Virus record (IMG/VR): IMGVR_UViG_3300046713_000024
Coordinates: 1 to 24,419 of that record
Reading direction: 5' to 3' (one strand)
From: a virus
Length of the DNA: 24,419 nt
Position 1 is the stretch's first letter, and each line of letters begins with the position of its first letter. This document shows, piece by piece, positions 518 to 24,419 of the stretch. A model generated the notes under the pieces. The model was not told the DNA's origin. It saw nothing but the letters and a program-made list of their open reading frames with translations, and did not search any database. The position numbers and the translations under genes are program-made.

Positions 518-3500
518 CTTTCTAAATGATGGTTCGCTAATTGGATTCTGGCCATTGAATGAGCCCAGCGGGGCGTCAATGTTCTTGAACTATTCGCCAG
601 CACGTTATCGTCGCCCAAGCGGTATTTCATTTGACTTCCAAGTAGCACAAGCTGAAGCACAAAATTCTCAACAATCTAAGTCTCCTTGGCCGGGCACTAC
701 CAGTATCTTCAATCCAGAATCTGGCGTTACATACAATGGCTATATGGTGCAGGGCTATTGGAAGCTTGGGGCAGACTCTTCTCCATTTAGCAAGTATCTT
801 ATTCTTGGTGATGGATGTTCACAAGTACGCGAACAGACTCTTGCTCCCAACGTAGCCAATAGTGGCTTTACGGTTGGTATGTGGGCCTACCCCAATAGTA
901 ATGGCTATATTGATTTCAGGGGAGATGCTCTTCCTGCAACATACAACCTAGAAACGGAATGTGCAAGAGCACACTCTCTATTGTCTCAAAAGCAATTTGC
1001 TTCTCTCGGCGGATGGCACATGGGGGTTTCTGGTGCCCTGAATAATGCCGCACAATTTGCTGGTACTGTAAGTAATAGTGGACTTCATGCATTCGTTAGC
1101 TTTGAAAGAACGAATACTACATCGCCGTCTACTCTAAGAACGCCAATTGAATCGGGCTGCTTTACTCACCTGACATTCTCGTTCCGTTACGTTGATGGCA
1201 CAAACGATCAAGTCGTTCTATACAAGAACGGTCGCGTTGCCGCCAGTGGAACATATAGCACAGGTGCTGGTGGTGCCAGTGCAAGTACATTGGCCAATAC
1301 AACTCTTGTTGGTAGACCACTTGCGATAGGTGGTGGCGATCAAGGCTCGGCTGGTACGAATACATTTAGTGGTACGTGTGGATGGAATCATCTTGTGTCT
1401 GGAGTCTATTTCTTCAGACGTGTTCTCAATGAAGCCGAAGTGTTAGACCTTCACAATGGTTCAACGCTTCAGCCGCTTGAAAGCAATAAGTTGGCCACCG
1501 TAGAAGTTAGCATTACAGATCCACAATTACTTGCATATTATCCATTCAGATCTATTGGATGGCCTGATGCTTCCAAGAATCATAGACCACTGGCCGGTCC
1601 TCGTGACGAGGGTCCCGTTGGAACATACATACCAGTTCCAGGCCCATTTGTGGGTGGTGGCATGTTGCAGAATGGTGCTTCTGCATCAGATGCCGTTGTT
1701 GCAACTAGTGGTCTAATATATGATATGATTAGTGCTCGTAGCTGGACAATCGGCATTCTTGCCGGTCCTGTCACCGGCTTGGGTCGTGACGATAACATGA
1801 TCTTCTCTATGGGATCTATTTCAACCGCAACAGCCGGTACTGGTCCCACAGCTATCAGTGCCGCCACATTTGGCATGGCACTCACAGAATGGAGTACGCC
1901 AAATCGTATACGTTTCTCTGCATATCCACTTGGTGATATCACGGCCTCTGTATTCAACATTGATACTGCAACCAGTGGATACTTCATTGGTGCTATGCAT
2001 CACTATGCAGTAGCATATGATGATTCTACAAAAGGCATAGCATTCTATCTTGATGGTACATTACAAGGAAGCGGCACACTAGCACATTCTTTGACATCAC
2101 AACTTTCGCGTTTGGCAGGAAGTGGTTACCCATTGATGTTCACGAATGGTGTAACAGATGCTACCATGCACACCGTTTTAGCTGCCGGTGGATCTGACCT
2201 GTATGTTGGCCCAATCACAATCATGGGACGTGCCCTTCTTCCCGAAGAAATCAGATACATAGCACAGAGTGGCATCAATACAGTGCCACTTTGGTTGACA
2301 ACATACGATCCTAGATTAATCGGATATTGGCCATGCTCTGATTACAAACTAGACGATGTTATCGTAGAAGATCGTGCTAGAGTATGGGAATTTTTCCCAG
2401 GCAATCTAACAAGGGGCGATACAGAAACCAAATGGGAAGCTTGGCAATTAAGTCCAAAATTCAATCAGTTTGGTACACGCACAACACCGCCAGAGCTTGC
2501 CAGTTATGGTGTTCTTGGCATTACATCTGGAATCTTCGGCGTTCAAGGATTAAGCCCTGCCGATTCTGCACTGTTAAATGCAGCCGCCGTACGTAGTGCC
2601 ATTGCCAATTTGTCGAATAGATACAAGCCAGTTAATGAACAAAACAATCTCATTTCTCAGAATATCCTTGGTGATTTCGTTATGGGATTTGAGGTTACGC
2701 CGAGTGGAACAATTCAGGCTGATCCACTTGGATTGACTGCAAATGCAACTAAGTTTGAATTCAATTCAACTCTAGCACTATATGGAAATCTTGGTGCCGG
2801 TAGCACTGGTGGCGAACTACGTGCGTTTTTGACTACTGTAGATGCCGGAGAAGGATCCGGTGTAACAATCGTATTTGCTTCACGCACTGGAACATTCTCG
2901 GCTGCCAACTATGTTCCACTTGTGTCAGGAACATTGCCATATGGCGTACCCTCCAAGGTTCTTTTTCATAGCAAGTTTGATAATCCATACAATGTCACTG
3001 GGGAAACTACAGGACAGGCCCCATTGGGCGTTAGCCTATGGATCAATGGAGTGCGTGTGCAACGTAGATCTCTTACTGCTGCCACGGCTAAAATATGGGT
3101 TAATGGTGCCGTTGATGCTGCTGGCGATAATCTATTATTGCAATTTGGTGGCGAAGCTAGCAACAACACGTATTCAACTGTTATATCTCGCGATGGTGGA
3201 TTAGGCGACATATACATGCGTGAGATGTTCTTGATGCGTGGCATTTTTACCAAGGGAGAAATGGCGGCATTGGCTGCCAGCGGTATTCAATTACCAATTA
3301 TTGCTGGCTATACACCAACATTACCAAAGACACAAGTTACAATAGCCGATGCCGCATTGAAAGGTTATTGGAGATTCAATGGTCTAGATGGTGGAGGCTC
3401 TGGAACAAAAGACCTGAGCTTCAATATGAATCATTTGACGCCAATATCTGAACAGAAGAATCGTCAAGTTGGTGGATCTAACGCTTCATCTAGAGCACTC

Positions 3501-5315: not shown

Positions 5316-5316
5316 G

Positions 5317-8300
5317 ATGGCTGGTGGAATCATAGTATCAAACGGCATTGTTGTTAGCGGCGTAGGCGTGCCGTTGAACGGCATTGCTTGGCCTTCTGGT
5401 CAATTTGCATCTGGTGTACCCGGATGGCAACTAAGTGCATTTTTGTCTTCTGCCAATGCCACCTTTGGCTTCAACGTAACTCCCCATAATCTTCAAACAG
5501 AATGGGTTCCTACTGGAGACCCTGACAGCTTCCATGGTGCTAGCGGACAATTGCCGGATATCGGCCACTCGATGGAAATCTTCATTGGTGACTTTTACTT
5601 CCGTGGCAGTGTTGTACATTCGGACTATACAACCAGTACCGGAGGAACAATTGTCAATGTTGGACTTGAAGACGATCGTCGTCGTCTTCGTAGTGTCAAG
5701 ATACATACTGAAGACCTGGGACAGCAAGTACCTAGTGGCATTGTATCTGTTGCAAGAGCATTCCGCATTTTGAACGGACTCTTTGACATTGATGGCAATC
5801 CTTCTGAGCCGCTTGTAAAGGAATATGACAGAATCCTACAGTTCGGTGGCACTTACGCACAGATCTTGGCAGCCATCGATCTATGCTTCAATGAGGGAAA
5901 CTGCTCTATACCAACGACAATTCTGCCAACGGTAGAACAGATCGAGAAAAACATTGGCGGAACCGTATCCGCAATTCGTTTCCAGTTCAATCTGGATACA
6001 CTTGATGAAGTGATCTCGCGTGTGCTTCTAGATACCGGCTATGACTGGTATTGGAACATGGATTCTCAACAAGTCAATCTTGTCAACAAGAAGAAGCAAT
6101 TCGACATAAGCGAAGCTGACATCCTTGATCTAGTATCGCAATTTGGCAGTGCTTCTGGCCTGAATGATACGAAGCAGCTTGGTTTCGGTCAAGACGTTGT
6201 GCCCGACCCAACACGTTTCCGCGTGCTCGGTGGACACATGGAAGGTTTCATCAATTCTGAACTTCTAAGCCCTATTGATGGATTGGACACATCAGGACTT
6301 GATGGCAATGTTGTCTTCACGAAGATCTGGAACAAGCTCAGCGTCGGCTTCTATGACGCTGGTGGATTCTTCCGCACATACATACCAACAGAGAAAGAAC
6401 TCCAGCTTTCACTGGCGGGTATTGAACAATGGTCGTATTACAAACTCTATCAGATAGCAAGTGGCACTGCAAATCCTCCGGGCTATGGCCTTCCTCCCGA
6501 TGCTGGATCGATCGCCGCACAAGACTCTTCGTTTCAAAGCCGATTAGATCCCAATATGCCATTGGCTGGCATTGCTACTGGGGCAGCCGAATCTGGCCTT
6601 CGCGTCATCAGTAACCGCAGAGACCAGGATCAGAATTGGGTCATAGCCTTCTACAACAGAATTCGCGACCACGCCTCTCGTCATTATGGACGCTCATACA
6701 TCATTCAGGGTCTATTGTACAATCAGGCGTCTGGTCTTTTCCAAGTCGTTGATGCAGCGTGGGCCAACGTAGAAAATCAAGTACAGGGATTCTCCGTCTC
6801 ATCTTCTGGAACTATTAGCACTAGTGGCGTGTTCGTAGAGGACTATGAAATCAATCGTTCTCTTGGTCCAGTAAGTCCATTCGTAACAGAAGACTTCCGC
6901 ATCAAAGCCTATGTTGTTCTTCCCAAAGATACCGTTTACGGACCATTGGGAGACGACAATCCCGCCAGCTTCGCCAACTGGACTGAAGATGCACCGCCAT
7001 TTAATCCAAGCGGTGATGGTCGCCATTATGTGCCAGTGACACTACAGGATGTTGGTGAGCGTGTTATTGACCCGCATGCCAATGCAGATCTGTATGCCTT
7101 TGAAAGCTATCCAAAGGGAACGTTGCTATGCCAGTTGCCTATCAATGCAGGACCATCTGGCGGCATTGTGAATGATGGTGTCATCTTTAATCTTGCAACT
7201 ATGTTGACCACGATTACCAAGCTAACTGGGTCTGGTCTTCTAGATATCATCAATCCCGCCCAAGTGCTGAATGTATATGACTCTCTGTCTGGTGTAGCCA
7301 TTCCAGTCCAGTCTCGTTTGCGTTACGGCCAAGATTATCCTTCTCAATGGGTACTTGGTGAATTGCACTATGAAAGACACGAAGACGTTCAGGTTGACGA
7401 TCAGTTCGTTCCATGGGCATTCTCACCAGAAGGCAATCAGACATCGCTACAGGTCATGACTGACCGTGCTATTCGTCGCGTGGAGGGCAAGATAGTTCCC
7501 AAGAGTTCTTCACGCTATGCAGATTTCCAGCAAGTTGGACTACCCTTACTATCGTTTGACTCATTTGCCGAACAGAACATAGGACCATCTGGTCTTTATG
7601 GTGAAATCTCACACGGCGTAAGCGAACTGAACATTAGCTTTGGTATCGACGGATTCACAACACGCTACAAGATACAGTCCTACTATCCTAAGTTCGGCAA
7701 AGAGGCTCCTCTTGGTGAACGTGTACGTGCCCAATTGAATGGCATCTTGAATCCAATCGATTTCGTCGATCTAGAGCTTTTGAATCCTATTCCCGGTCCA
7801 CCGAATAATTCGGCACTGCCGGGTGATATCTTTGCACCGCCCATCTGGTTTGATGGCGAACAAAGTGCCGTGCGTGTAACAATATCTGAAGTCAACAATA
7901 TCTTCACGCTTTCAAGCATACCAGGAACGGCTGTTGATGAACGTTATCGTGGCATTGATCAGCATCAATATTTGAAACCACCTCTAGCCCTAAGTTCATC
8001 TAACATTGATTTCCGTGAAGGTGCTATCTGCATTGATGGTTTCTTGAATATTAATGACAAGGCAGTTTATCACACCGACAATTTCCAGTTACCAAATGGC
8101 AATCGTATTCTTCGTTACTTTACACAAGGTCGTCCATTTGCAAATGGAACAATTGTTCAAATTGAACGTGTTAATCCAATCAATGATGCAAACTATGACG
8201 TAACCATTGTTGGTGGAACGGGATCAAGAGCCATTTTCGATCTGCCTATTTTGAATGGTACCGTTGCTATTGGCGATAAGACAACGCTTGCCGCACAGGG

Positions 8301-8652
8301 CAATGCCAAGATTACTCCTGGTAATAGCGATGGAACTATCTATCTCAATGGAACAACCGGTACAGCCGCCGCTGGCGTGACGCCGGTAGAGATTGTTTCT
8401 ATGACAAATCAAGGTAGTCCGAACGCACTTGCTGTTTGTCAAGAACTTGGCATTGGATCGGATGGCCACTATAGTATTGCGTCTGGTGCAACGTACTTTA
8501 ACGTTGTTCCGATTCCATTTAGAGAAATGGCAGCATCTGGAGACAGAGGATTTTTGACTACGCCCGATAGCGTGCCTAGTGGTGGCTTTGGACAAACTGC
8601 TACCATTAGCTTCGTAGAAATCATCACGACGGCTCTAAGGAGATTCGCATAA
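5317..8652 (+). CDS. phage tail or baseplate-like structural protein, 1111 aa
   Basis: The start at 5317 has AAGGGA seven bases upstream and lies one base after the preceding stop. Residues 1-160 look beta-rich and contain MEIFIGDFYFRGSV, which resembles the small beta domains of tail hub proteins. Residues around 230-262 (LDTGYDWYWNMDSQQVNLV) are also hub-like. Residues about 770-810 carry an FGIDGFTTRYKIQSYYPKFG pattern, of a kind I associate with large-phage virion proteins. The dipeptide SG appears about 20 times. There are no transmembrane segments. The stop overlaps the next start as TAATG. The precise role is uncertain: baseplate hub, tail spike base or fibre connector are all possible. 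The assignment to the virion is the firmer part, based on context and composition. Confidence 0.7.
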   Translation: MAGGIIVSNGIVVSGVGVPLNGIAWPSGQFASGVPGWQLSAFLSSANATFGFNVTPHNLQTEWVPTGDPDSFHGASGQLPDIGHSMEIFIGDFYFRGSVVHSDYTTSTGGTIVNVGLEDDRRRLRSVKIHTEDLGQQVPSGIVSVARAFRILNGLFDIDGNPSEPLVKEYDRILQFGGTYAQILAAIDLCFNEGNCSIPTTILPTVEQIEKNIGGTVSAIRFQFNLDTLDEVISRVLLDTGYDWYWNMDSQQVNLVNKKKQFDISEADILDLVSQFGSASGLNDTKQLGFGQDVVPDPTRFRVLGGHMEGFINSELLSPIDGLDTSGLDGNVVFTKIWNKLSVGFYDAGGFFRTYIPTEKELQLSLAGIEQWSYYKLYQIASGTANPPGYGLPPDAGSIAAQDSSFQSRLDPNMPLAGIATGAAESGLRVISNRRDQDQNWVIAFYNRIRDHASRHYGRSYIIQGLLYNQASGLFQVVDAAWANVENQVQGFSVSSSGTISTSGVFVEDYEINRSLGPVSPFVTEDFRIKAYVVLPKDTVYGPLGDDNPASFANWTEDAPPFNPSGDGRHYVPVTLQDVGERVIDPHANADLYAFESYPKGTLLCQLPINAGPSGGIVNDGVIFNLATMLTTITKLTGSGLLDIINPAQVLNVYDSLSGVAIPVQSRLRYGQDYPSQWVLGELHYERHEDVQVDDQFVPWAFSPEGNQTSLQVMTDRAIRRVEGKIVPKSSSRYADFQQVGLPLLSFDSFAEQNIGPSGLYGEISHGVSELNISFGIDGFTTRYKIQSYYPKFGKEAPLGERVRAQLNGILNPIDFVDLELLNPIPGPPNNSALPGDIFAPPIWFDGEQSAVRVTISEVNNIFTLSSIPGTAVDERYRGIDQHQYLKPPLALSSSNIDFREGAICIDGFLNINDKAVYHTDNFQLPNGNRILRYFTQGRPFANGTIVQIERVNPINDANYDVTIVGGTGSRAIFDLPILNGTVAIGDKTTLAAQGNAKITPGNSDGTIYLNGTTGTAAAGVTPVEIVSMTNQGSPNALAVCQELGIGSDGHYSIASGATYFNVVPIPFREMAASGDRGFLTTPDSVPSGGFGQTATISFVEIITTALRRFA

Positions 8653-10829
8653 TGGTAGTTGCTTCTGGGCAGCTTCCGTATATGTATGACGGAGACTTGC
8701 CCGTTCATCAGAAACGTGGTGGATGGCCTGGGGTAGAAGTACCCAATATTGGCCCGTCTGGAGATCTGTTTGAACAAGGCATGTTTGTTCTGAATGCAGA
8801 ACAGAGAAAATGGCACCTGCTGAATCTTGGTACACAAACGTATCTTGCATTTTGGAATCCCAACATTCCCGCAGGCTCAGGTTTTGAACCCAAGATGAAT
8901 GGCGAAACGTTCATTGGACATGTTGGAAGACCGGCACTTCTTGCAATCGACAACATCATTCAGATGAGAGATAATGTAGACACTCTTTTCAGCAGATATG
9001 CCGATGATACCAATTACACTTCATCACAATTCATGGAATCATGGCTATCCAATGCTTATCCGGAAAGCCCAAGTGGACATCGTGAGTTTGTCTATGATTC
9101 AATAAATGATCTCTATTTCATACAAGACGCAATTTGGTTAAGACCATCATTAGATGATTTCACTGCTGGTGATTTCATGCTAGATATGGATATACACTGG
9201 CTTGGAGGATCTGGAACATTATTCGATGTTGACTATGGTGAAGTTCTATTCAATCCATTCCCATTTCCACGAAAAGCATTCTTTTTTGCACCAGCATCAC
9301 AAACGACTTCTTTATCATTTGGTCCACTATATCCATTGCTACAAACAACAGCAGGAACATTGCCATCAGTATTAGCGTCTAGATATGCATCGGACATTGC
9401 CGCTGGCACATTTAAGGCAGAAACCAATTTTGAAGCAATTCAATCTGGATATTTGCAGCTAGATGGTTATGCTATTTTTCCAGGCACTTTGATCAGATTG
9501 ACGACAGGCAATAATTCCAATTTCTATAGCGACATTGGAGTAGCGTCTGATTTTACATTCTTTGGTTCTGGTGCTAGAAAAGTTCATGATGGAGATGGTT
9601 ATGCAGATGGCAGTGCTCGCGTCTACATATCACCAACTCCACAATCTAGTGGAATGTATAGACTGTCTTTGGCGAATGTCAAATCGAATGTACCATTTTC
9701 ATCTATTCCATCTGGTTATGTAAGCTTCTTTCCAGGTGGAGATTTGTGGCCTGCTGCCATTAGTGATAATGTAATGATGGATAGAAGCATTGCTATTACA
9801 AGCGATGGCGGATTGAAGATTACTCCAGCGGCATCTAAAGGATATCATGTAATGGATGATGCTCTATGGATTACTGGTCCAAATGCATCAGCATTGAGTG
9901 GCAACTTCAATACAAAAGGACTATACATTGTATCTCCACATACAGGAGAATGTATTTGGTACCGTCCAGCAGAACGTATTGTGGCAACATCTGGAAATAA
10001 GCCGGGTGGAACGGCACCGCTTGGATCGCCAGGAATTTTTGGTGTCCATGTAGGAATGGAAAATTTTGGTGCAAACTTCATGCGTATCAGTCGTGTTTGG
10101 CAAGAAAACATAACTGCTGGTTCGCCAAACATTTTCGACAACACAATCTATTTCCAGAAATACAGTCAGCCAGATCTGAACTATTCAGAACAGTCTGTGT
10201 CTTGGACCATAAGCAATAATGCTGGTGGAATTGGAAATAGTATTGATGGTATGAATTTTGATGGAACAAATTACTGGATTTGGTATGAGGGTGGAACCGT
10301 TCATCGTTTCAATGGATCATTGGTTTATACTGGCTCATTCACTGGTAATATTGCTCGTCGTAGACATTATGCTAATGGTCAAAAATTGTATACCATTGCT
10401 GGCAATGTTACAGTTGGCGATCCTATTTTAGCTATGTCTCCCGCTGGCGGATCTATTAGCGGTATTGGAGTTTGGTCAATATCATCTGAGCCAGCTAATA
10501 TTTTGACTGATGTTGGAACTTATAGTCATGATTCGGCAAAACGCTTAAGAGCAGAAACACATTTTGGCGATAGATCTACTGCTGTCATTCATGCCATTAG
10601 AGATGTTTCTGGATCAACTCATGTTCCTAATGGTGTATGGATGATTATTCAATTCAACAATTTGATACCATTTAATCCAGATGAACTTTTCCTTTGCAAA
10701 ATTAGAGAAGATGCAACCGAATGGGTTGTAGAGAAATCATTCAATCTTCGCATTATTCCAGGAATATTGTCATTGCCAGCCGTGCCTACAGATTTCCCAT
10801 ATGAGTTTATTTTACACGACATCGATTAG
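8652..10829 (+). CDS. tail or fibre-like structural protein, 725 aa, family not recognised
   Basis: AAGGAG (8637-8642) lies nine bases upstream of the ATG, which overlaps the preceding stop as TAATG. Residues 1-90 include GMFVLNAEQRKWHLLNLGTQ, which could be an attachment segment. The rest is rich in Gly, Ser and aromatic residues with strand-like alternation. Around residues 530-570 it reads IDGMNFDGTNYWIWYEGG and then VHRFNGSLVYTG, a blade-like rhythm seen in beta-propellers. No enzyme motif is visible. The 3' half favours A/T-ending codons (GGA, CCA, ATT) more than its neighbours. A receptor-binding or tail-tip role is inferred from its position after the tail-like gene and before the transcription terminator. 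Confidence 0.65.
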   Translation: MVVASGQLPYMYDGDLPVHQKRGGWPGVEVPNIGPSGDLFEQGMFVLNAEQRKWHLLNLGTQTYLAFWNPNIPAGSGFEPKMNGETFIGHVGRPALLAIDNIIQMRDNVDTLFSRYADDTNYTSSQFMESWLSNAYPESPSGHREFVYDSINDLYFIQDAIWLRPSLDDFTAGDFMLDMDIHWLGGSGTLFDVDYGEVLFNPFPFPRKAFFFAPASQTTSLSFGPLYPLLQTTAGTLPSVLASRYASDIAAGTFKAETNFEAIQSGYLQLDGYAIFPGTLIRLTTGNNSNFYSDIGVASDFTFFGSGARKVHDGDGYADGSARVYISPTPQSSGMYRLSLANVKSNVPFSSIPSGYVSFFPGGDLWPAAISDNVMMDRSIAITSDGGLKITPAASKGYHVMDDALWITGPNASALSGNFNTKGLYIVSPHTGECIWYRPAERIVATSGNKPGGTAPLGSPGIFGVHVGMENFGANFMRISRVWQENITAGSPNIFDNTIYFQKYSQPDLNYSEQSVSWTISNNAGGIGNSIDGMNFDGTNYWIWYEGGTVHRFNGSLVYTGSFTGNIARRRHYANGQKLYTIAGNVTVGDPILAMSPAGGSISGIGVWSISSEPANILTDVGTYSHDSAKRLRAETHFGDRSTAVIHAIRDVSGSTHVPNGVWMIIQFNNLIPFNPDELFLCKIREDATEWVVEKSFNLRIIPGILSLPAVPTDFPYEFILHDID

Positions 10830-10880
10830 TGTACTATCTTAAGCATTGGTATGTGCCATAGCCGTAATGGGTTAGACGTT

Positions 10881-10912
10881 CTCTATTCGAGATAGTTGCC
10901 CGTCGAATAGAG
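10881..10912 (+). promoter_or_regulatory. 10-bp perfect hairpin overlapping the Shine-Dalgarno sequence of the 219-aa gene
   Basis: CTCTATTCGA (10881-10890) and TCGAATAGAG (10903-10912) are perfect reverse complements around a 12-base loop. The last two bases of the right arm (AG, 10911-10912) are the first two of the AGGAG Shine-Dalgarno sequence (10911-10915), which sits six bases before the ATG at 10922. No T-run follows, so it is not an intrinsic terminator. It may stabilise the transcript 5' end, mark a processing site or tune translation. The surrounding 92-base gap (10830-10921) holds no convincing promoter that I can see. Confidence 0.6.
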
Positions 10913-10921
10913 GAGCAAGTC

Positions 10922-11581
10922 ATGGTATCGGGAATCAGATTTTTTGCATGTTCAGGAGCCATGGGTGGAACACCAACTACTCGTGCAACTCCCAATCTAG
11001 AGATTTTCAATTTTGAAGCCGGGGCCACCAACAACCCTAATCGTATGGGCTTCTTCGGTTCCGCTGGTGCCCCCAATAGTGCGGTTATCATTGGTCAGTA
11101 TCAGGACCGTACACATCGTTGCGATGAAAATGGCACCGATCTTGGTACCATGATCAATGTCAAATTCACTGGTGCTAGTTTGGCTTCCGTTTCTGGCGTT
11201 GCATTCTCTGCTGGCTTGACAAACATTCCTCAGAACTCTGGAACATTGCTATGCAGATTCACTGAACCGAATGGCACGGCCGTTCTGACTCAGAATGCGG
11301 TCTTCAGTGCTATCAATCTCACTGCTGGATCTGGTGCTCCTAACGTGAGCGATCTAGTAAACACTGGCATTACTATCAAGGCCGCTCAGCTTGCTGACAC
11401 TCAAGGCTTTGCTGGCAATGCATCTTGGCAGAATATTGACAGTACCGGTTCTGCATTGGCTTTGAATGGTCAAATTGGTACGGCCAGCGTTCACGACTTC
11501 CACTTGATCATCAGTGGTACTCCAACTGCTGCCGGTCGCAAGATCAACTTTGCCTACTACATGCAGCTTGAATATCTCTGA
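10922..11581 (+). CDS. probable abundant virion protein, 219 aa, family not recognised
   Basis: The start is set by AGGAG (10911-10915) six bases upstream. The product is rich in Gly, Ala, Ser, Thr and Asn. Short beta-like stretches such as VKFTGASLASVSGVAF and FHLIISG, and a terminal INFAYYMQLEYL, suggest a compact beta fold. The N-terminal segment has Cys at residue 9 but no lipobox or signal peptide. It is the only gene in the module with its own leader hairpin, and it is followed directly by a strong terminator. That arrangement suits a separately expressed or highly expressed component, such as a decoration, fibre or tail-tip protein. It shares frequent SG dipeptides with the three preceding structural proteins. 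The function is inferred from context. Confidence 0.7.
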   Translation: MVSGIRFFACSGAMGGTPTTRATPNLEIFNFEAGATNNPNRMGFFGSAGAPNSAVIIGQYQDRTHRCDENGTDLGTMINVKFTGASLASVSGVAFSAGLTNIPQNSGTLLCRFTEPNGTAVLTQNAVFSAINLTAGSGAPNVSDLVNTGITIKAAQLADTQGFAGNASWQNIDSTGSALALNGQIGTASVHDFHLIISGTPTAAGRKINFAYYMQLEYL

Positions 11582-12597: not shown

Positions 12598-13762
12598 CAA
12601 AGAAGAAGTGGCAGAAGAAACCAAGTCTGTAGAATCGGCAACGTTTGGCTTCTTTAGCCAAGCGATTAACGATGTCGAAAAGGGACTGCGTTGTATTGCT
12701 GGCTCCGACATGATCGACCCCGATCCCAATAAGTCGGGCTCTTACTCTCTTGACTATGATCTAGTTGTTCCTTTTCCAGAGGGACGCATCACTGAAGTCT
12801 ATGGCGAGGAAGGTACATGCAAGACAACACTTACTCTTGAAGTGGCCGGTGGTGCGATTGGCAGGGGCAAAACCGTACTATACGTCAACATGGAGAAGAA
12901 CCTGAACCTCTCTCTCATGAAGACCATTCGCTCTCTACGTCCCTTCATTGAAGAAGCTGTCGAACGCACCAAGGGCAAGAAGACAGACTGTCCTCTGTGG
13001 ATTGTCAATGCAGCCAATGGCGAGCAAGCACTTGAAACGATGCGTAAGTTCGCTTCTATGGTTCCTGGTGGCGTTGCGATTCTTGATTCGATCGATGCCG
13101 CTCAGCCCGATGCCGTTCTATCTGGTGAGATTGGCGAGAACAAGATGGGCAACCTGGGTAAGTTGATGTCAGACGCCATGCGTAAGCTTGTGGGGGTCGC
13201 AGAAGCCAATAAGGTGTCTCTGATCTTTGTGAATCAACTACGTGACAAGATCACGATGTATGGCGATCCATCCGAGACTCCTGGTGGCAAGGCCGTTCGA
13301 TTCTATGCATCACAGCGTATTCGCCTTAAGAAACCTCGTAAGGCAGACATGATTATGAATGCACAAGGAGAAAAGCTTGGATTGGTAATCAACTATGTTG
13401 TAATCAAGAATAAGTTTGCACCAGATGGCAATGAAGGTGCCTTCCCCATCCTTTTCAAGAATGGTATCTTCCGCGAACAAGAGCTAGTAACGCAGTGCTG
13501 CAATTTCGGTATCCTACGACTTGGAGGCAAGGGGGGACAGCAAACGTATCTACCGAAGCTAGACAGAGTTACTGGTGAGTTCATGAAGAAATCAGATGGA
13601 GAACTAGATGGAACGTGGATGAAGCAGTTTGATGCGGCACGCAGACTACTACTTGATCCCGCCCTGGTTACAAAGCTGGACGGCCAGCTTTCTGAAATCT
13701 TGAAGGTCAATCGTCAAGATGCAGTGGATACCATGATCGATGAAGTTCAAGACCCTGAATAA
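12578..13762 (+). CDS. recA: RecA-family recombinase, 394 aa, with non-canonical Walker A
   Basis: The GTG start at 12578 has GAGGGAG seven bases upstream and begins MAKSKTNKEE. RecA binds single-stranded DNA and drives ATP-dependent strand exchange. The whole RecA core is readable: Walker A GEEGTCKTT (76-84), the conserved Glu in NMEKN (106), Walker B VAILDS (166-171), GEIGENKMG (183-191), VNQLRDKI (218-225) and GGKAVRFYASQRIRLK (236-251). These match bacterial RecA more closely than T4 UvsX. The residue before the catalytic Lys is Cys81 where RecA normally has Gly. The C-terminal tail is acidic, as is common in RecA. Its neighbours are a resolvase-like nuclease, which overlaps by 23 bases, and the helicase, which suits recombination-dependent replication. 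Confidence 0.95.
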   Translation: MAKSKTNKEEVAEETKSVESATFGFFSQAINDVEKGLRCIAGSDMIDPDPNKSGSYSLDYDLVVPFPEGRITEVYGEEGTCKTTLTLEVAGGAIGRGKTVLYVNMEKNLNLSLMKTIRSLRPFIEEAVERTKGKKTDCPLWIVNAANGEQALETMRKFASMVPGGVAILDSIDAAQPDAVLSGEIGENKMGNLGKLMSDAMRKLVGVAEANKVSLIFVNQLRDKITMYGDPSETPGGKAVRFYASQRIRLKKPRKADMIMNAQGEKLGLVINYVVIKNKFAPDGNEGAFPILFKNGIFREQELVTQCCNFGILRLGGKGGQQTYLPKLDRVTGEFMKKSDGELDGTWMKQFDAARRLLLDPALVTKLDGQLSEILKVNRQDAVDTMIDEVQDPE

Positions 13763-14162
13763 TCGAGAAGTGAGACTGGAGATCTCTCCCAGTCACTATC
13801 CGATGCGGTCTAGATCGCAGTCGAAGTCTGCCGGGCAGTTCGCCCTCGGACGTACATTGCGATCCATCTATGGCATGCAGACGATCATCCTTGAGGAATT
13901 TGGCATTCCGGAAGAAAGACTCTTCCTAGACTTCTACATGCCACACCATTCGCTAGCATTCGAATATCAGGGTCCTCAGCACAGTGAATTCAACAGCTTC
14001 TTTCATGGAGATAAGAAAGGCTTTGAAAATTCTAAGGCACGCGATAAGCGTAAACTTGATTGGTGCATTCTAAATGGAATTTCACTAGTTGAAGTCAATG
14101 GCAATGTGACAGCAGAAGACCTGAAAGAGTTCATTCAAAAGGTCAAGAATAACAATGAGTAA
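13740..14162 (+). CDS. Vsr/DUF559-like PD-(D/E)XK endonuclease, possible junction resolvase, 140 aa
   Basis: The core reads LFLDFYMPHHSLAFEYQGPQH (residues 61-81, written here as D64, E75, Q77 and H81), followed by KARDKRKLDWCILNGISLVEV-type residues, with D102 and K105 prominent. This D-x10-E-x-Q pattern, with a following R-D-x-x-K helix and a final strand, is typical of small Vsr/DUF559-type restriction-fold nucleases. It overlaps the end of recA by 23 bases and the helicase start by eight. No good Shine-Dalgarno sequence precedes the ATG at 13740; a later start at 13803 (Met22) cannot be excluded. Holliday-junction or branched-DNA cleavage would fit its partner RecA, but a homing or mismatch endonuclease of the same fold is possible. 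Confidence 0.75.
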   Translation: MKFKTLNNREVRLEISPSHYPMRSRSQSKSAGQFALGRTLRSIYGMQTIILEEFGIPEERLFLDFYMPHHSLAFEYQGPQHSEFNSFFHGDKKGFENSKARDKRKLDWCILNGISLVEVNGNVTAEDLKEFIQKVKNNNE

Positions 14163-16690: not shown

Positions 16691-17658
16691 TACTCAATTC
16701 AGTCTCCCCTTCACGTATCAAGACGTTTGATATGTGTAAGTTCAAATACTGGCTCACGTATCATTGCCCGAACGTTAAGCTCAAGTCCAATTGGGGTGCT
16801 GCCCATGGTTCTTTATTGCATGATGTTCTAGAGAATCTATCAAATGGTACAGATGCGGATTGGATGAATCGTCTCTATAGAGGATATGCCGGGACGCTAT
16901 CAACATTGGATAGATATGGCAAACCAGAGATCATGCAAACACCATTGGTATGGGCCAAGGAAAAGGAATTCCAAGACAAGAAACCATATTGTGATTCATG
17001 TCCTTATAAACAAAAGGAAACTGGCACATGCAAGATCTCTGGCGAAGCTCTTGATGCACTAACTGGCTGTCCTCGTATGCTGTTTGATGGCTCAGTCTCA
17101 ATGCTAGAGAAGACAATCAAACGCTATCAGAATGGCGTCTGGCAGAAGATTCTACGCGACAACAATGGCGTCCCAATTGGTACAGAATATCCATTCTCTA
17201 TCAAGATTTCTGGCAGTAACGTGCCTATCAATGGTATCATGGACTTAGTGATTGTAGAAGATAGCGACACCATTCACGTCATGGACTACAAGTCAGGAGC
17301 GTGGGTACAAAACTATGCCGAGTGTTATGAAGATATTCAAGTCAGAATCTATTCGCTAGCATGTCGTAAAGAGTTCATTGAAGATCAAAATGGCAGGGGA
17401 CATAAATTCAAGAACGTAATCCTGACATTCGATTACTTCACGGCCAATCCTATTACTCTTGCTTTTACAGCCGAAGAGGATGCCAAAACAGAGAAATGGA
17501 CAGCAGATAAGATCAAAGAGATCGAAACAACCAACTGGATCGATCGTATAGTCAAAAGCAATGAAGATTTTGCTCAGAAGCGGGCATGGAAGTGCAGATC
17601 TCTATGCGATACTGAAGTTTGTGCTTCTAAATGGAAGGGAAGGTTTGAAGTAAAATGA
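16684..17658 (+). CDS. RecB/Cas4-like PD-(D/E)XK nuclease with probable Fe-S cluster, 324 aa
   Basis: The fold motifs are GSLLHDVLE (H46), GIMDLVIVE (D187), VMDYKSG (D201, K203) and EDIQVRIYSLA (Q219), the order seen in Cas4, AddB and RecB nucleases. Cys18 near the N-terminus and Cys304, Cys308 and Cys313 at the C-terminus are placed like the four ligands of the 4Fe-4S cluster in Cas4 and AddB. A second group (Cys103, Cys106, Cys116, Cys129) could bind zinc. AAGGGA lies about five bases upstream of the ATG. Phage nucleases of this type trim or degrade DNA ends during recombination. No cas genes or CRISPR array accompany it, so a CRISPR role is not suggested. Confidence 0.88.
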   Translation: MLILNSVSPSRIKTFDMCKFKYWLTYHCPNVKLKSNWGAAHGSLLHDVLENLSNGTDADWMNRLYRGYAGTLSTLDRYGKPEIMQTPLVWAKEKEFQDKKPYCDSCPYKQKETGTCKISGEALDALTGCPRMLFDGSVSMLEKTIKRYQNGVWQKILRDNNGVPIGTEYPFSIKISGSNVPINGIMDLVIVEDSDTIHVMDYKSGAWVQNYAECYEDIQVRIYSLACRKEFIEDQNGRGHKFKNVILTFDYFTANPITLAFTAEEDAKTEKWTADKIKEIETTNWIDRIVKSNEDFAQKRAWKCRSLCDTEVCASKWKGRFEVK

Positions 17659-18233
17659 TGACACGTATTTCTAAAGACTGGGTTGATGCTTACTTTGAAT
17701 ATGGTGTTGATGTTGCCAATCGAAGAGTATTCTTGTTTGACGATGTAGACGCAAACAGCATCGGTGCCGTCATCAAAGGACTCTATCTCATGGAGTCTAA
17801 TGATTCCACAAAGCCCGTTGAGCTTTTCGTAGGATCCTTTGGTGGATCTGAATACGATATGTTTGCTCTATATGATGTATGCCGCACTCTAGTAAGTCCG
17901 ATTCATACGATCGCTATTGGTAAGTGCATGTCTGCCGCCCCGCTACTAGTTGCCGGTGGACGCAAGGGTGAACGCTATGCTACTCCCAATACATTCTTCA
18001 TGGTTCATGAAGCCTGGGAAGATTTTGGTGCGAAGCGTATGGATGAACTCAAGCGTGACCTTGCCCACTATAGTGCCATGGGACAGCGTTGGGGAGAGCT
18101 TATGGAAAAGCACAGCAAAAAGCCAGCCAAGTTTTGGCATGGTCTATGTAAGGACCCTGGCGACAAATACTTCAATGCTGATCAAGCTCTAGAATGGGGA
18201 CTGATCGATCACATCTGGGACGAGAAGGAATAG
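17655..18233 (+). CDS. clpP: ClpP-type serine protease, 192 aa
   Basis: The catalytic triad of the ClpP family is in place: Ser93 in GKCMSAAPLLVAGG, His118 in FMVHEAW, and Asp170 in PGDKYFNADQALEWGLID. The oxyanion GG occurs in FVGSFGGSEYD (60-68). The length (192) matches bacterial ClpP (about 200). ClpP-type enzymes in phages often act as prohead proteases next to capsid genes, but here the gene overlaps the nuclease stop as ATGA in the replication operon. It has no ClpX- or ClpA-like ATPase partner in the window. It may join host Clp ATPases or cut a specific phage substrate. The family is clear; the target is not. Confidence 0.9.
   Translation: MMTRISKDWVDAYFEYGVDVANRRVFLFDDVDANSIGAVIKGLYLMESNDSTKPVELFVGSFGGSEYDMFALYDVCRTLVSPIHTIAIGKCMSAAPLLVAGGRKGERYATPNTFFMVHEAWEDFGAKRMDELKRDLAHYSAMGQRWGELMEKHSKKPAKFWHGLCKDPGDKYFNADQALEWGLIDHIWDEKE
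18225..18229 (+). promoter_or_regulatory. Shine-Dalgarno AAGGA that sets the start of the zinc-ribbon-type gene
   Basis: AAGGA lies six bases before the ATG at 18236, just inside the end of clpP. The earlier ATG at 18194 in the same frame has no comparable site and would overlap clpP by 40 bases, so 18236 is chosen as the start. Confidence 0.7.
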
Positions 18234-18908: not shown

Positions 18909-21900
18909 ATGAACTTCACGCATTTAAGCGTACACTCCAAAGCGTCCATGCTCTATGGGTCAGCCGATGTCAAGGACATCGTGACTAGAGTAAAGGAGCT
19001 TGGTCAAACGTCGATTGCACTCACAGACTACTGCAACCTATACAATGCTATTGAGTTCTATAGACAGGCCAAGGCCGCTGGAGTAAAACCAATCCTTGGC
19101 GTTGATCTTTTGTTCTGTGAAGATTGTGAGCAGTTACGTATCCAGAAGGTGCGTCATGTCTCCCATATCATTCTTCTGGCCGAGAATGACATTGGATGGC
19201 GTAACATCACAAGGCTAGTGTCGGAATCCAGCAACGAAGATAACTACTACTACAATCCTCGTGTCGATTTCAAGCTGCTTGAAAAGTACAAAGAGGGTGT
19301 AATCTGTCTGACTGGCGGAAGCATTGATGGCGTTATCTCTAAGCATCTGTATGATAAGCAGTCAGAAGATGGACAGGATGTAGAACCCGCAGCAATCTTC
19401 AAGGCCGAAGGATTGGTACGTAGATTCTTGAAGATATACGATACTAGCCACTTCTACCTGGAGGTTCAGTCTACTGGCCTTACAGAACAGGAGCAGATCA
19501 ATACAAGACTGCGTTCCATTGGATTGAAGTACGGCCTATCGCTTGTAGCGACCGGGAATGTTCACTATGTGAATCAGCATGATGCCGAATCTCACAAGAC
19601 ATTGCTGGCCATGAGCGAGAATAGCTATAGCAAGTCTACATTCACAAATTTTGCACACGAAGAATTCTACATCAAGTCGCGTGAACAACTCCTGGAGTCG
19701 GGCTTTCAAGAGTCTGAGCTTGATACAAGTCTAGAGATCGCCGCCAGATGCAATGTGGATATCGATATCAACAAGAGACGCCTACCACGATATGCATTTG
19801 TTCCAAGCGGTAAATCAGCCCAGGAATATCTGTTTGAGCTTGCGAATGATGGTCTTTTGCGTATCCCAAAATCTGGTGGTACTCCTCAGGATTATCAGGC
19901 CCGTCTTGATCGCGAACTGAACGATATCCACGAGATGGGATTTGATGATTACTTCCTCATCGTGCATGATGTTGTTTCATGGATTCATAACCAGGGCATC
20001 TTGTTGGGGCGTGGACGCGGTTCTGCTGGCGGTAGTTTGGTGAGCTATTGTCTTGGCATTACAGATATTGATCCATTGCAATATGGTCTGATCTGGGAAC
20101 GCTTCCTCAATAAAGGCCGTGGTGGTCTACCCGACATTGATACTGACGTGCCTCGTTCCAAGAGACAAAAGGTATTGGACTACATTCGTACCCGATTTGG
20201 TGCCCGCAATGTTGCCCAGCTTGTTACCTTCAATGGCTTACAGGCCAGAGCGGTTCTCAAAGAAGTTTTCCGCGTATACGACATGCCGTTCGATGAGGCC
20301 AATAAGATCACGGCATTGGTTCCGGCCAAGAATGATGAGCACGTTGCAATCTCATTGGACGAAGCTATTAATTCAGTCAAAGAATTGAAGGAATACTCAG
20401 AGAAATACAAGCCGTGGTTTACTATCGCCCGTGCTCTTGAGGGCAGTTACAAGTCTACCGGCATCCATGCCGCTGCCGTAGTTATCTCAGACGTGCCATT
20501 CGATGAGAGTGCATATCCGCTAGCACGGTCTAAGGATGGAGATCCCATCTTTGGATGGGACATGAATACAGTGGATACTCTGAGTCTTTTGAAGCTAGAC
20601 ATTCTGGGGCTCAATACGCTAGATGATATCCAAATGACTATGGATCTAGTGCGTGAGCGTCGCAATATCGAAGTCTCGCGTGCCACCATTCCTCTGGATG
20701 ACCCAGTGACATATGCCATGATTGGCAATGGCTTTACGGTTGGCGTTTTCCAGATTGAAAAGCAGTTGGGTAAGACATGGAGCAAGAATCTCAAGCCCGA
20801 GAACATTGAACAACTTAGCGACTTGGTAAGCCTCATTCGTCCTGGTCCGATGGAGAGTAACATGCATACTCAATATCGCGACGTAAAGAATGGCAGTGAG
20901 CCACTTTACATCCATCCCTCCCTAGAGCCAGTTCTGAACAATACCTATTCGGCTCTTCTGTACCAAGAACAGGTTATCGATATTTGTCGTCTTCTTGCTG
21001 GTATGTCTTTGATTGATGCTGACAAAGTACGCAAGGCGATGGGCAAGAAGAAGCCAGAGGAAATGAAGAAATGGCAAGAGGTCTTTACTTCTGGCTGTAG
21101 CAAGAACGGCATTGATTACGATATCTCAATAGCCATCTGGGGCTACATCGAGAAATTTGCTGGCTATGGATTCAATAAGTCTCACGGCATCGGCTATGCA
21201 TTGATGGCTTATGAGACGGCCTACTTGAAGGCCAATTATCCAATCGAATTCTTGTGTGCCAAACTTACCAACTCTGATGGAGACGCAGAGAAGTTGAGTG
21301 GCCTGATCTATGATGCCAAGATTTTCGACATTGAAGTTACTCCTCCTCGTGTTAGACAGGGCAACAAGAATTTTGCTGTTGTCAATGATAAGCAAATCGC
21401 ATTTGGTCTTACTGCCCTCAAGGGAGTTGGCGTGGCAGCGATTTCTGACATGCTCAAGTTGGCAAATGGACTCAATACATTTGATGAGATTTTGTGGCAG
21501 TGGGTCATGACAAAGAGCAAAGTCAATAGTGCTACCATGGCCTCTCTCATCAAGGGCGGTGCTTTCGATGACGTACTTGAGAATCGTGTGCGTGGAGTTG
21601 CAAAGCTCAAGCTCATTTCTGAAATGACCGAGAAAGAGACTGAGTGCATTAAGACATTGATGCAGGCAGAACCAGAGATTCTAGACTGGGTTAGATTTAT
21701 CAAGGCCGTAGCGGATGATGCTCGTTGTGTAGAGATCAAAACCAAGTACAATGTCGCCATTCCCAATGTACGTCGTCGTGAAACAATACGAGACCTATTG
21801 AAGGAATATGATGCAGGAGAATTGTTTGACTCCAAATCACAGAGAATTGTGTGGGAGCAGTTCTATCTTGGCATCTCTCTAAGTGGTAGTGAGGCGGATG

Positions 21901-22193
21901 TCTATAAGGCACGTCATAAGTGTGTAGATCTTGTCAAGAATTCGTCAGCAGATATGCGATTCGAGATCGCGGTCTGTGTGGATGGAGTACGAGAGATTGT
22001 CACCAAGAAGGGTGATCCCATGGCGTTTGTTACTGCACGCGACAATACCTATCAAATGGATAACATCGTTGTGTTTCCAAAAACGTTTGCTCTCTGCAAG
22101 GGGCTACTTGAATCTGGAAACGTCATTAGAATTAGGGGCAAGGTAGATGATCGTGGATCATTGATTGCCGACATTGTGGAGAGACTGAAATGA
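18909..22193 (+). CDS. dnaE: DNA polymerase III alpha subunit, DnaE type, 1094 aa
   Basis: This is the replicative polymerase of the operon. Order: PHP domain (residues 1-290), palm and fingers (290-800), HhH segment around GLTALKGVGVAAI (about 838-850), C-terminal OB-fold (about 1010-1094: KKGDPMAFVTARD and VIRIRGKVDDRGSL). Catalytic residues are D409 and D411 in LPDIDTDVP and D564 in LKLDILGL; GRGRGSAGGSLVSY (368-380) and IRPGPMESNM are also typical. It lacks the exonuclease insert of PolC. The PHP metal site is degraded: HLSVHS has Ser7 in place of the first His of HxH, ALTDY has Tyr41 for His, and ATGNVHY has Asn for Asp. Host clamp binding is unclear; an AGELF segment near residue 970 is a weak candidate. 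No Shine-Dalgarno sequence is visible before the ATG, one base after the previous stop. Confidence 0.95.
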   Translation: MNFTHLSVHSKASMLYGSADVKDIVTRVKELGQTSIALTDYCNLYNAIEFYRQAKAAGVKPILGVDLLFCEDCEQLRIQKVRHVSHIILLAENDIGWRNITRLVSESSNEDNYYYNPRVDFKLLEKYKEGVICLTGGSIDGVISKHLYDKQSEDGQDVEPAAIFKAEGLVRRFLKIYDTSHFYLEVQSTGLTEQEQINTRLRSIGLKYGLSLVATGNVHYVNQHDAESHKTLLAMSENSYSKSTFTNFAHEEFYIKSREQLLESGFQESELDTSLEIAARCNVDIDINKRRLPRYAFVPSGKSAQEYLFELANDGLLRIPKSGGTPQDYQARLDRELNDIHEMGFDDYFLIVHDVVSWIHNQGILLGRGRGSAGGSLVSYCLGITDIDPLQYGLIWERFLNKGRGGLPDIDTDVPRSKRQKVLDYIRTRFGARNVAQLVTFNGLQARAVLKEVFRVYDMPFDEANKITALVPAKNDEHVAISLDEAINSVKELKEYSEKYKPWFTIARALEGSYKSTGIHAAAVVISDVPFDESAYPLARSKDGDPIFGWDMNTVDTLSLLKLDILGLNTLDDIQMTMDLVRERRNIEVSRATIPLDDPVTYAMIGNGFTVGVFQIEKQLGKTWSKNLKPENIEQLSDLVSLIRPGPMESNMHTQYRDVKNGSEPLYIHPSLEPVLNNTYSALLYQEQVIDICRLLAGMSLIDADKVRKAMGKKKPEEMKKWQEVFTSGCSKNGIDYDISIAIWGYIEKFAGYGFNKSHGIGYALMAYETAYLKANYPIEFLCAKLTNSDGDAEKLSGLIYDAKIFDIEVTPPRVRQGNKNFAVVNDKQIAFGLTALKGVGVAAISDMLKLANGLNTFDEILWQWVMTKSKVNSATMASLIKGGAFDDVLENRVRGVAKLKLISEMTEKETECIKTLMQAEPEILDWVRFIKAVADDARCVEIKTKYNVAIPNVRRRETIRDLLKEYDAGELFDSKSQRIVWEQFYLGISLSGSEADVYKARHKCVDLVKNSSADMRFEIAVCVDGVREIVTKKGDPMAFVTARDNTYQMDNIVVFPKTFALCKGLLESGNVIRIRGKVDDRGSLIADIVERLK

Positions 22194-22417
22194 TATACGA
22201 ATACGACTTTCAAGACATTGGGCTAGACGAAGAGCAGAAGAAACTGGTCGAGCTTGGAATGGCAAACATTGAAAATCTCAATGCCAAAATCAAGGACATC
22301 CTCAACAAGCGTGGTTGCGATGGTTGGGAACCGCTCTATCCTTTTTCAGTTCCTTTGCTTTGGTTTAGACGACAAACTACTGTTCTAGCAGTGTCGCAAA
22401 AGAAAAGAAAGAATTGA
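22190..22417 (+). CDS. small DUF4177-like protein, 75 aa
   Basis: The gene is coupled to dnaE by an ATGA overlap, with GGAGAG (22178-22183) six bases upstream. The MIYEYDFQDIG opening and the LNKRGCDGWEPLYPFSVPLLWFRR segment (residues 38-61) follow the DUF4177 pattern, which pairs an N-terminal YEY strand with a helix ending in a GWE motif and a final strand with F.RR. Proteins of this type are small and of unknown role. Nothing in the sequence says what this one does; its position suggests expression with the replication genes. Confidence 0.7.
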   Translation: MIYEYDFQDIGLDEEQKKLVELGMANIENLNAKIKDILNKRGCDGWEPLYPFSVPLLWFRRQTTVLAVSQKKRKN

Positions 22418-23079
22418 TGAACGATCTATCCGACGAAGCACTGACCTATGTGCTTGAGCAGTATCATCCACTGGTCAAACACATAGCTAAGCAGGCTTGC
22501 TATTCCTCGCATGCACTTGATATCAACGATCTTTATCAGGTCGGAGACATCGCGGTGTTGCGTGCCATTAAAGCCTATGATCCATCGTCTGGAAAAAACA
22601 TCAAGTCTTTTGTTGCAAATTCTGTTCGTAACGCCATCTTCAATGAGGCTGCACGCTTTCTTGGAATCATCACGGTTGACTTTAGAACAACCAATCAGGC
22701 ATCACTAGTAAACAAGCTGTCCAATGGTGGCAAGACGGATGATGAGATAGCCATCATATTGACAGAAAAGTATGGTAGAAACTTTGACAAGGATCATGTA
22801 CGAGATTTGCGTGTAGTATATACCCGCAGGAATTTTGACACCATTCAAGAAGACTTGCCTACTAAGGAAGAATTTTCTGAACAGGATACAACCATTCACG
22901 ACATCCTAGAGAGTGTAATTAAGGACGACATTGATCGAATGATTCTTGAGAGAAGAATACTCGCTTCTGCTTCTGCCGACGAAATAGCTAGTGCATTGAA
23001 GATCACTAAGAAGGCGATGTATGAGCGTGAGATTCTTCTAAAGAACAGAATTAAGCGAGCAATTGAGGAGACGGTATGA
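22414..23079 (+). CDS. sigma-70-family RNA polymerase sigma factor, 221 aa
   Basis: Residues 14-85 match sigma region 2: YHPLVKHIAKQACY, then INDLYQVGDIAVLRAIKAYD, then KSFVANSVRNAIFNEAARF. This is the core-binding and -10 recognition region. Residues about 171-215 (DRMILERRILASASADEI, then ALKITKKAMYERE) look like a helix-turn-helix in the place of region 4. The start overlaps the previous stop as ATGA, and a second ATG follows directly. It would direct host RNA polymerase to a phage promoter class, possibly the late genes on the left. A diverged transcription factor with other specificity is the main alternative. No recognition site can be deduced. Confidence 0.85.
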   Translation: MMNDLSDEALTYVLEQYHPLVKHIAKQACYSSHALDINDLYQVGDIAVLRAIKAYDPSSGKNIKSFVANSVRNAIFNEAARFLGIITVDFRTTNQASLVNKLSNGGKTDDEIAIILTEKYGRNFDKDHVRDLRVVYTRRNFDTIQEDLPTKEEFSEQDTTIHDILESVIKDDIDRMILERRILASASADEIASALKITKKAMYEREILLKNRIKRAIEETV

Positions 23080-24419
23080 CGCAGAAAAAGAGAATCCTGT
23101 TTGTTGGAGAGGCCAGTTTTTTGAACACTGGATTTTCAACCTACTATCGCGAACTTTTGCCACGATTGGTGGCGACCGGCAAATACGAGATTGCCGAGCT
23201 TGGTTCCTATGCCCGTCCTGACGATCCGCGTATTGCAGAGTTTATTCGTGGTCGCTGGAAGTTCTATGGTGTCATGCCCACCAATGAAGAAGAGGTTCGC
23301 ATCTTTCAGCAAGCATCTCCACACCCTCGTGCCCGTGGCCAGAACACGAATCAGTTTGGCGAATACAAGTTTGCCGGTGCGGTAGCAGATTTCAAGCCGG
23401 ATATCGTCGTTGACATTCGTGACTGGTGGATGCTTGAGTTTCAAGAACGTAGCATCTTCCGTCCATGGTACAAATGGATTGTCATGCCTACGGTTGATGC
23501 CGAGCCTCAACTAGAGGAATGGATTCAGACGTATGAGAATGCCAACATCGTCTTGGCCTACTCTGACTACGGCATTCACACACTACGCCAGCAATCATCA
23601 CTCGCTCCAAACGGCAAGCGTAGCATGAAGATCTTCCCCAAGCCAATGCGTCCAGGAGTTGATATCTCCGCTTTCAAGCCCATGAACAGGGCGGAAGTTA
23701 GAGAGCACTGGAACCTCGCATCTGATGTTCCTATCATTGGAACGGTTATGCGTAATCAAAGCCGCAAGCTATATCCAGATTTGATTGATGCATTCGCCCT
23801 AATGAAGAACAAGTTCAAGGGCGATCCACAAGTTGACAAGGCCGTATTGTTGCTGCACACATGCTGGCCAGACAATGCCTTTTCGTATGATTACCCACGT
23901 CACGTTTATCGCCTTGAGGCATACAATTGGATGCCCAATCACAAAAAGGGCATTCGTGGCGATATCTTGCAGTCATTGTTTTGTTATGCCTGCAAACAGA
24001 CATCCGTTACGTTTGCCATGAATCTTCATGGTCGTCCAGTTCAGGATGGCCGCATCAAGATGCCGTGCTCATATTGCGGCAAGGTAGAAGCTTCTCCTCC
24101 CAATACAAGCATAGGATTTGGTCGTGAAGATTTGGCCAAGCTGTACAACTTGATGGACCTGTACATTCAATGCTCAATCTGTGAAGGAGATGGCATGCCG
24201 ATTCAAGAAGCCAAGGCTTGTGGCGTGCCCACCCTAGTCACAGACTATACAGCCATGCGTGAGAAGGGACGCTTCCCCGCCAGCTATTCCCACTTCAAGG
24301 AATCAGACATCACCGAAAAGAACTATACCTGTCACAAGGGCGGCGATGTCATTGATGTTGGTCGCTATTACTATGAGCCAGAAACGTCTTGCAAACGTGC
24401 TCTTCCAAGCATTGAAGAT
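23076..24419 (+). CDS. GT4-type glycosyltransferase with zinc-ribbon insertion (partial, 3' end missing)
   Basis: The ATG overlaps the sigma stop as ATGA and has GAGGAG five bases upstream. The frame stays open for 448 codons to the window edge. The start RILFVGEASFLNTGFSTYY is typical of the N-terminal GT-B domain. ICEGDGMPIQEAKACGVPT (368-386) has the EX7E motif (E370, E378) of the donor-binding domain of GT4-type enzymes. Between them, C303, C306, C331 and C334 (LFCYACKQ and MPCSYCGK) form a CxxC-x24-CxxC zinc-ribbon-like insert. Retaining GT-B enzymes move a sugar from a nucleotide donor. The acceptor could be DNA bases, virion proteins or host glycans; the sequence does not decide. Confidence 0.85.
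   Translation, partial: MTQKKRILFVGEASFLNTGFSTYYRELLPRLVATGKYEIAELGSYARPDDPRIAEFIRGRWKFYGVMPTNEEEVRIFQQASPHPRARGQNTNQFGEYKFAGAVADFKPDIVVDIRDWWMLEFQERSIFRPWYKWIVMPTVDAEPQLEEWIQTYENANIVLAYSDYGIHTLRQQSSLAPNGKRSMKIFPKPMRPGVDISAFKPMNRAEVREHWNLASDVPIIGTVMRNQSRKLYPDLIDAFALMKNKFKGDPQVDKAVLLLHTCWPDNAFSYDYPRHVYRLEAYNWMPNHKKGIRGDILQSLFCYACKQTSVTFAMNLHGRPVQDGRIKMPCSYCGKVEASPPNTSIGFGREDLAKLYNLMDLYIQCSICEGDGMPIQEAKACGVPTLVTDYTAMREKGRFPASYSHFKESDITEKNYTCHKGGDVIDVGRYYYEPETSCKRALPSIED
23982..24077 (+). other. zinc-ribbon-like insert inside the glycosyltransferase
   Basis: Two CxxC pairs (Cys303/Cys306 and Cys331/Cys334 of the product) are separated by 24 residues and flanked by GT-B sequence on both sides. 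The spacing is that of a rubredoxin-like zinc knuckle. It lies upstream of the EX7E donor motif, so it probably projects from the C-terminal Rossmann domain. Confidence 0.7.

Follow-up and report, generated by a model that had tools for sequence, protein, structure and literature searches.

Large clusters of lipopolysaccharide (LPS) and other glycan genes are known from cyanophages (PMC3037559) and also from jumbo phages (PMC7824862), and superinfection exclusion has been proposed as their role. In mycobacteriophage Che8, phage-encoded glycosyltransferases (GTs) decorate capsid and tail proteins of the virion, as cited in PMC11256854 and PMC12619734; these sources speak of C-terminal glycans and of two predicted GTs in Maravista. 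Chloroviruses also encode GTs, and B736L of chlorovirus NY2A (PDB 3oy2) best bound GDP-D-mannose (PMC4691112). Large phage LPS clusters, mycobacteriophage virion glycans and chlorovirus GTs are therefore already known; literature searches returned no description of a GT bearing a zinc ribbon, of a fixed place for such a gene after that of DnaE, or of a constraint on Ser-Gly. The locus analysed here resembles the cyanophage and jumbo-phage clusters in being an array of GT and nucleotide-sugar genes in a large phage. Those clusters are reported as sporadic, whereas the present one is anchored to DnaE at every locus with enough sequence and, unlike them, includes a zinc-ribbon GT and is linked to conserved Ser-Gly dipeptides in tail-type proteins. 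With the mycobacteriophage system it shares phage-encoded GTs, here accompanied by sugar-nucleotide genes and predicted to decorate virion proteins; in contrast to the C-terminal glycans and the two predicted GTs of Maravista, the cluster is far larger and the motif dispersed.

The window (the whole stretch of DNA analysed, 24,419 nucleotides) is a 24.4-kb viral fragment that ends one gene into a GT cluster. This last gene (23076–24419, + strand) starts with an ATG overlapping the stop codon of a sigma-factor gene as ATGA (23076–23079). Its product, of which 448 residues are visible, lacks its 3′-encoded part at the contig end; since homologues are ∼600 aa long (range about 540–625 aa), ∼150 residues are missing, including the C-terminal DUF4214 domain present in homologues of its own clade. 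The earlier note had called it a GT4-type enzyme with an EX7E motif, which was confirmed by a Pfam match to Glycos_transf_1 (E = 4 × 10–10), by homologues, by the catalytic motif EGDGMPIQE (E370-x7-E378; 24183–24209, + strand) and by the GT-B model of a homologue described below. Another motif, MRNQxRKLYPDL (23748–23783, + strand), is near-invariant across the GT family, and its Arg and Lys residues would likely bind the donor phosphate; RNQxRK is retained also by cyanophage GTs that have no ribbon. Homologues were sampled in 39 IMG/VR loci in a first scan and at least 580 stretches in a second, and conservation counts were taken over 89 distinct GT homologues. Three queries, the window GT and two relatives, were run against annotated phage records and retrieved only distant, ribbon-less cyanophage GTs. 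GT loci also turned up in MAGs of bacteria and archaea (among them Hydrogenophaga, SAR202 and Lokiarchaeota); these may be mis-binned phage contigs, and no host is therefore claimed.

The donor domain of the window GT contains an insert, the core of which (residues 303–334, CYAC-x24-CSYC; 23982–24077, + strand) has exactly the CxxC-x24-CxxC spacing that had been noticed earlier in the donor-binding half (C303, C306, C331 and C334). That observation proved sound well beyond the window: the four-Cys pattern is kept in 66 of the 89 distinct homologues, down to ∼30% identity, and the four Cys are the sole invariant columns among 56 aligned ribbon segments. Such retention across diverse homologues indicates that the pattern is no chance occurrence. 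The spacing between the two pairs varies between homologues, and the first knuckle is CxxxxC in five of them (L020, L022, L027, L071 and L087). The Zn_ribbon_8 model matched 31 of the 56 segments (best E = 3.5 × 10–6), the window's own segment weakly, while others matched TFIIS, LapB, rubredoxin-like or adenylate-kinase-lid models. An AlphaFold2 prediction of the window's ribbon segment (pLDDT 90.8) gave a strand-knuckle-strand layout; Foldseek with the ribbon alone returned weak matches (best E = 1.2), the RNA polymerase subunit P ribbon ranking first.

On a GT tree computed after removing the ribbon columns, the Cys states required two changes. In a clade of 21 rows three of the four Cys are gone while the insert is retained (ICGQTGKPF...SPFTGK), and a single further sequence (L084) has lost one Cys. 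Non-conservation of the Cys in homologues, named in the earlier note as refuting its proposal, thus occurs inside one derived clade only. The joint loss of three Cys from an insert that is itself kept argues for a single metal site. Judged by its sequence, the insert is probably a genuine zinc-binding-type ribbon, with zinc as its predicted ligand; the literature search did not recognise a zinc ribbon in a phage GT as a described feature. A third CxxC (C366/C369, before EX7E) was considered as a metal site and rejected, being variable outside the window's clade. The lid of adenylate kinase, also a nucleotide-binding enzyme, is likewise an insert with a zinc-ribbon-like Cys4, which some lineages have lost while retaining the lid. 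Adenylate kinase is nevertheless a different enzyme, and the Pfam model ADK_lid matched 5 of the 56 ribbon segments, weakly (best E = 2 × 10–4).

For the fold, a homologue (L034) that shares 84% identity with the visible part of the window protein was modelled using 26 sequences. The model (pLDDT 82.8) has GT-B architecture, and its top PDB match in Foldseek was the chlorovirus NY2A GT (3oy2; E = 3 × 10–15, TMt 0.77), followed by MshA, sucrose-phosphate synthase and BshA; B736L, MshA and BshA share the GT-B fold and the EX7E region with the phage GT. The GTs of cyanophages S-EIV1 and S-CBS4 (the latter encoded between portal and head-protease genes) have a short loop at the ribbon site and, unlike the window GT, no insert there; compared with them, the ribbon sits as a clean insert after the strand VLFTY and ahead of the helix that runs into EX7E. 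In GT4 enzymes the loop at this site lies near the base of the donor nucleotide, and from this general knowledge a lid-like role is proposed for the ribbon, which would stand beside the donor site, at a distance estimated from sequence order.

Upstream of the GT, the window carries the gene for its conserved neighbour, a DnaE-type DNA polymerase III alpha (18909–22193, + strand), and that for a sigma-70-family factor (22414–23079, + strand; Sigma70_r2, E = 5.6 × 10–11). DnaE was found no more than six genes upstream of the GT in all 84 loci with enough sequence, while SSB was recognised near the GT in 53 of the 89 loci and a sigma factor in only 29. The coupling of the GT to replication genes is real and old, and the linkage to DnaE and SSB is stronger than that to virion genes. 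Of the two links first suggested from the window alone, the one to a replication operon therefore stands, while the one to a sigma factor is recognisable in a minority of loci.

Gene content was examined in 19 related phage records of 120–183 kb. The ribbon GT stands first in a long cluster of genes for making sugars: a second GT4 gene lies downstream of it in 76 of 79 loci, and each of the 19 phages has 3–7 Glycos_transf_1 (GT4) and 1–6 Glycos_transf_2 (GT2) matches. GDP-mannose-dehydratase-family genes are present in 18 of these records. On the GDP-sugar side the clusters hold a GDP-mannose dehydratase and a GDP-fucose-synthase-like epimerase, and they also contain a TylF methyltransferase, one or more sugar nucleotidyltransferases, a cytidylyltransferase and a DAHP/KDO8P-synthase-family gene. 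Individual clusters hold further genes. In L134, a GT29 sialyltransferase-like gene (13181–13810, E = 2 × 10–21) stands near DAHP/KDO8P-synthase-family and cytidylyltransferase genes, and a sulfotransferase-family gene (17171–18031) also lies within the glycan cluster; in L132 there is an IMP dehydrogenase/GMP reductase-family (IMPDH) gene (4594–5736), which perhaps feeds GDP-sugar synthesis.

As acceptors of the sugar, phage DNA bases or a replication protein had been thought conceivable; neither idea was upheld. Glycosylation of DNA bases by the GT would fit the invariant linkage to DnaE, often with SSB, and DNA-glycosylating phage enzymes exist (Pyle et al. 2024, as cited in PMC12619734). 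It is nevertheless very improbable, since a base hydroxymethylase of the thymidylate-synthase family was found in none of the 19 phage records (the control being positive in 9 genomes), and the glycan genes, with many GTs per phage and GDP-mannose dehydratases in nearly every record, are far too numerous and too varied for base modification. Tet/JBP dioxygenases were likewise found in 0 of the 19 records, in a search in which no control scored either. The same wealth of GT and GDP-mannose-dehydratase-family genes speaks against a replication protein as acceptor, as does the ribbon, which has no near-invariant basic residue and a median net charge of +2. These ribbon properties also count against a docking role, in which the ribbon would bring in a partner from replication or transcription and so tie glycosylation to the replisome. 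Binding of proteins or nucleic acids is common among zinc ribbons, and the synteny with DnaE, SSB and sigma would suit such docking; however, the clade without zinc ligands keeps the same DnaE-SSB neighbourhood, and this role is very unlikely.

An alternative of greater weight, although still an unlikely one, is that, during infection, the cluster alters the polysaccharide on the host surface (LPS or capsule) and thereby blocks rival phages or recognition. Precedents exist in the large LPS clusters of cyanophages (PMC3037559) and of jumbo phages (PMC7824862), and genes of the GDP-Fuc type, of the DAHP/KDO8P-synthase family and of sialyltransferase-like kind suit surface glycans. Yet the polyprenyl-phosphate starters PF02397 (WbaP-type) and PF00953 (WecA/MraY-type) and the Wzx flippase (PF01943) were each found in 0 of the 19 records, with positive controls, and no ORF in the clusters has four or more TM-like segments; surface remodelling would also leave the Ser-Gly conservation reported below unexplained. 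Host enzymes could supply the lipid steps, which is why this alternative retains some weight. Where lipid-linked starters and flippases are missing, the likely acceptor is a cytoplasmic protein, and for a phage, soluble assembly on a cytoplasmic acceptor points to virion proteins.

Candidate acceptors of this kind are encoded at the other end of the window, where four large ORFs (510–11581), all on the + strand, together contain 78 Ser-Gly dipeptides versus 36 expected (∼2-fold). The products are putative tail/virion proteins, the first with LamG-3 and PKD domains (510–5315; 39 Ser-Gly versus 17 expected), the others encoded at 5317–8652 (20 versus 9), 8652–10829 (13 versus 7) and 10922–11581 (6 versus 2). 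Their virion identity was assigned by tape-measure adjacency and the LamG/PKD domains; a PHROG scan of these proteins matched no family. In virion proteins of control phages the Ser-Gly excess averaged 1.35 times, with some single proteins at ∼1.9 times or above, and no clear conservation effect was seen either between T4 and Cronobacter phage S13 (11/28 versus 108/319, P = 0.54) or between lambda J and KS9. It is therefore conservation, not count, that carries the argument. When the three largest proteins were compared post hoc with those of relatives G004 and G007, Ser was kept at 108 of 140 Ser-Gly sites versus 160 of 434 other Ser positions (P = 5 × 10–17), and among 62 dipeptide types Ser-Gly ranked first in conservation (0.74, against a median of 0.32). 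Thr-Gly was not conserved in these proteins (7/29), and Ser residues lost from Ser-Gly showed no special replacement by Thr. In non-virion proteins of the same phages, Ser-Gly serines were kept at 13 of 39 sites versus 171 of 435 for other Ser (P = 0.5). The luminal tape-measure proteins were not enriched (4 versus 10.5 expected in G004; 15 versus 20.6), and in G004 the excess was restricted to tail-type modules. In a second clade Ser-Gly was enriched and its conservation weaker (significant in 2 of 4 comparisons). The homologues involved in the enrichment and conservation are those of G004, G001 and G007 (L137, L136 and L138). A codon or DNA-motif cause of the excess was rejected, the Ser-Gly codons being diverse. 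The pattern suggests that exposed virion proteins are under a sequence-specific constraint. Given the GT cluster, glycosylation is the obvious candidate for its cause, the link being correlative, and Ser-Gly is a possible modification motif.

Taken with the gene content, these data somewhat favour the idea that the phage assembles a soluble glycan on its own tail proteins, with the ribbon GT as the first and most constant enzyme. For this scheme we infer the fold details of the complete window enzyme, as well as zinc, donor, acceptor and order of action. The protein would be a retaining enzyme of GT-B fold (GT4-type), and the loop joining a donor-domain strand to the pre-EX7E helix would hold a zinc ribbon with a structural role. 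The cluster would build a cytoplasmic oligosaccharide from nucleotide sugars, probably GDP-sugars, which would be attached to phage tail proteins, plausibly O-linked at the Ser of Ser-Gly. The ribbon would most likely shape or stabilise the nucleotide side of the donor pocket, much as the zinc-ribbon lid does in adenylate kinase, or dock a partner enzyme, and would not act as a nucleic-acid reader. A wider proposal, offered tentatively, is that a widespread uncultured lineage of 120–180 kb phages might perform autonomous Ser-Gly-directed O-glycosylation of exposed tail proteins: these phages would synthesise their own sugar nucleotides, use a zinc-ribbon GT4 as the core or initiating enzyme and have Ser-Gly as a phage sequon. 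If so, a large group of uncultured phages would make and attach complex glycans without host envelope machinery, as chloroviruses do; concrete modification sites (Ser-Gly) would be predicted, there would be an explanation for long GT arrays in phages that are otherwise read as LPS genes or stuffer, and a toolkit for cytoplasmic protein glycosylation would be on offer. Among GT4 enzymes, a zinc ribbon inserted into the donor domain would be unusual.

Several GT genes are interrupted by intein/LAGLIDADG-type insertions, seen in L037 (3489–6398) and L038 (3549–6452), both with Pfam support, and in L065; in L071 (a 955-aa ORF from ∼4001) an intein-type insertion was recognised by sequence only. 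The GT, an unusual host protein for inteins, carries them in three different conserved motifs, in one case immediately ahead of EX7E. Because inteins tend to survive at conserved positions in important proteins, the enzyme is probably of importance to the phage. In the window, a small ORF between RecA-like and DnaB-like genes (13740–14162) gave a partial match to HNH/homing-endonuclease PHROGs (phrog_559, E = 6 × 10–15). The replication operon contains a ClpP-like protease gene, identified by sequence (17655–18233), and its homologue in L121 occupies the corresponding position. In the second clade (L028, L031 and relatives), DnaE is apparently encoded by two ORFs around an exonuclease-like ORF.
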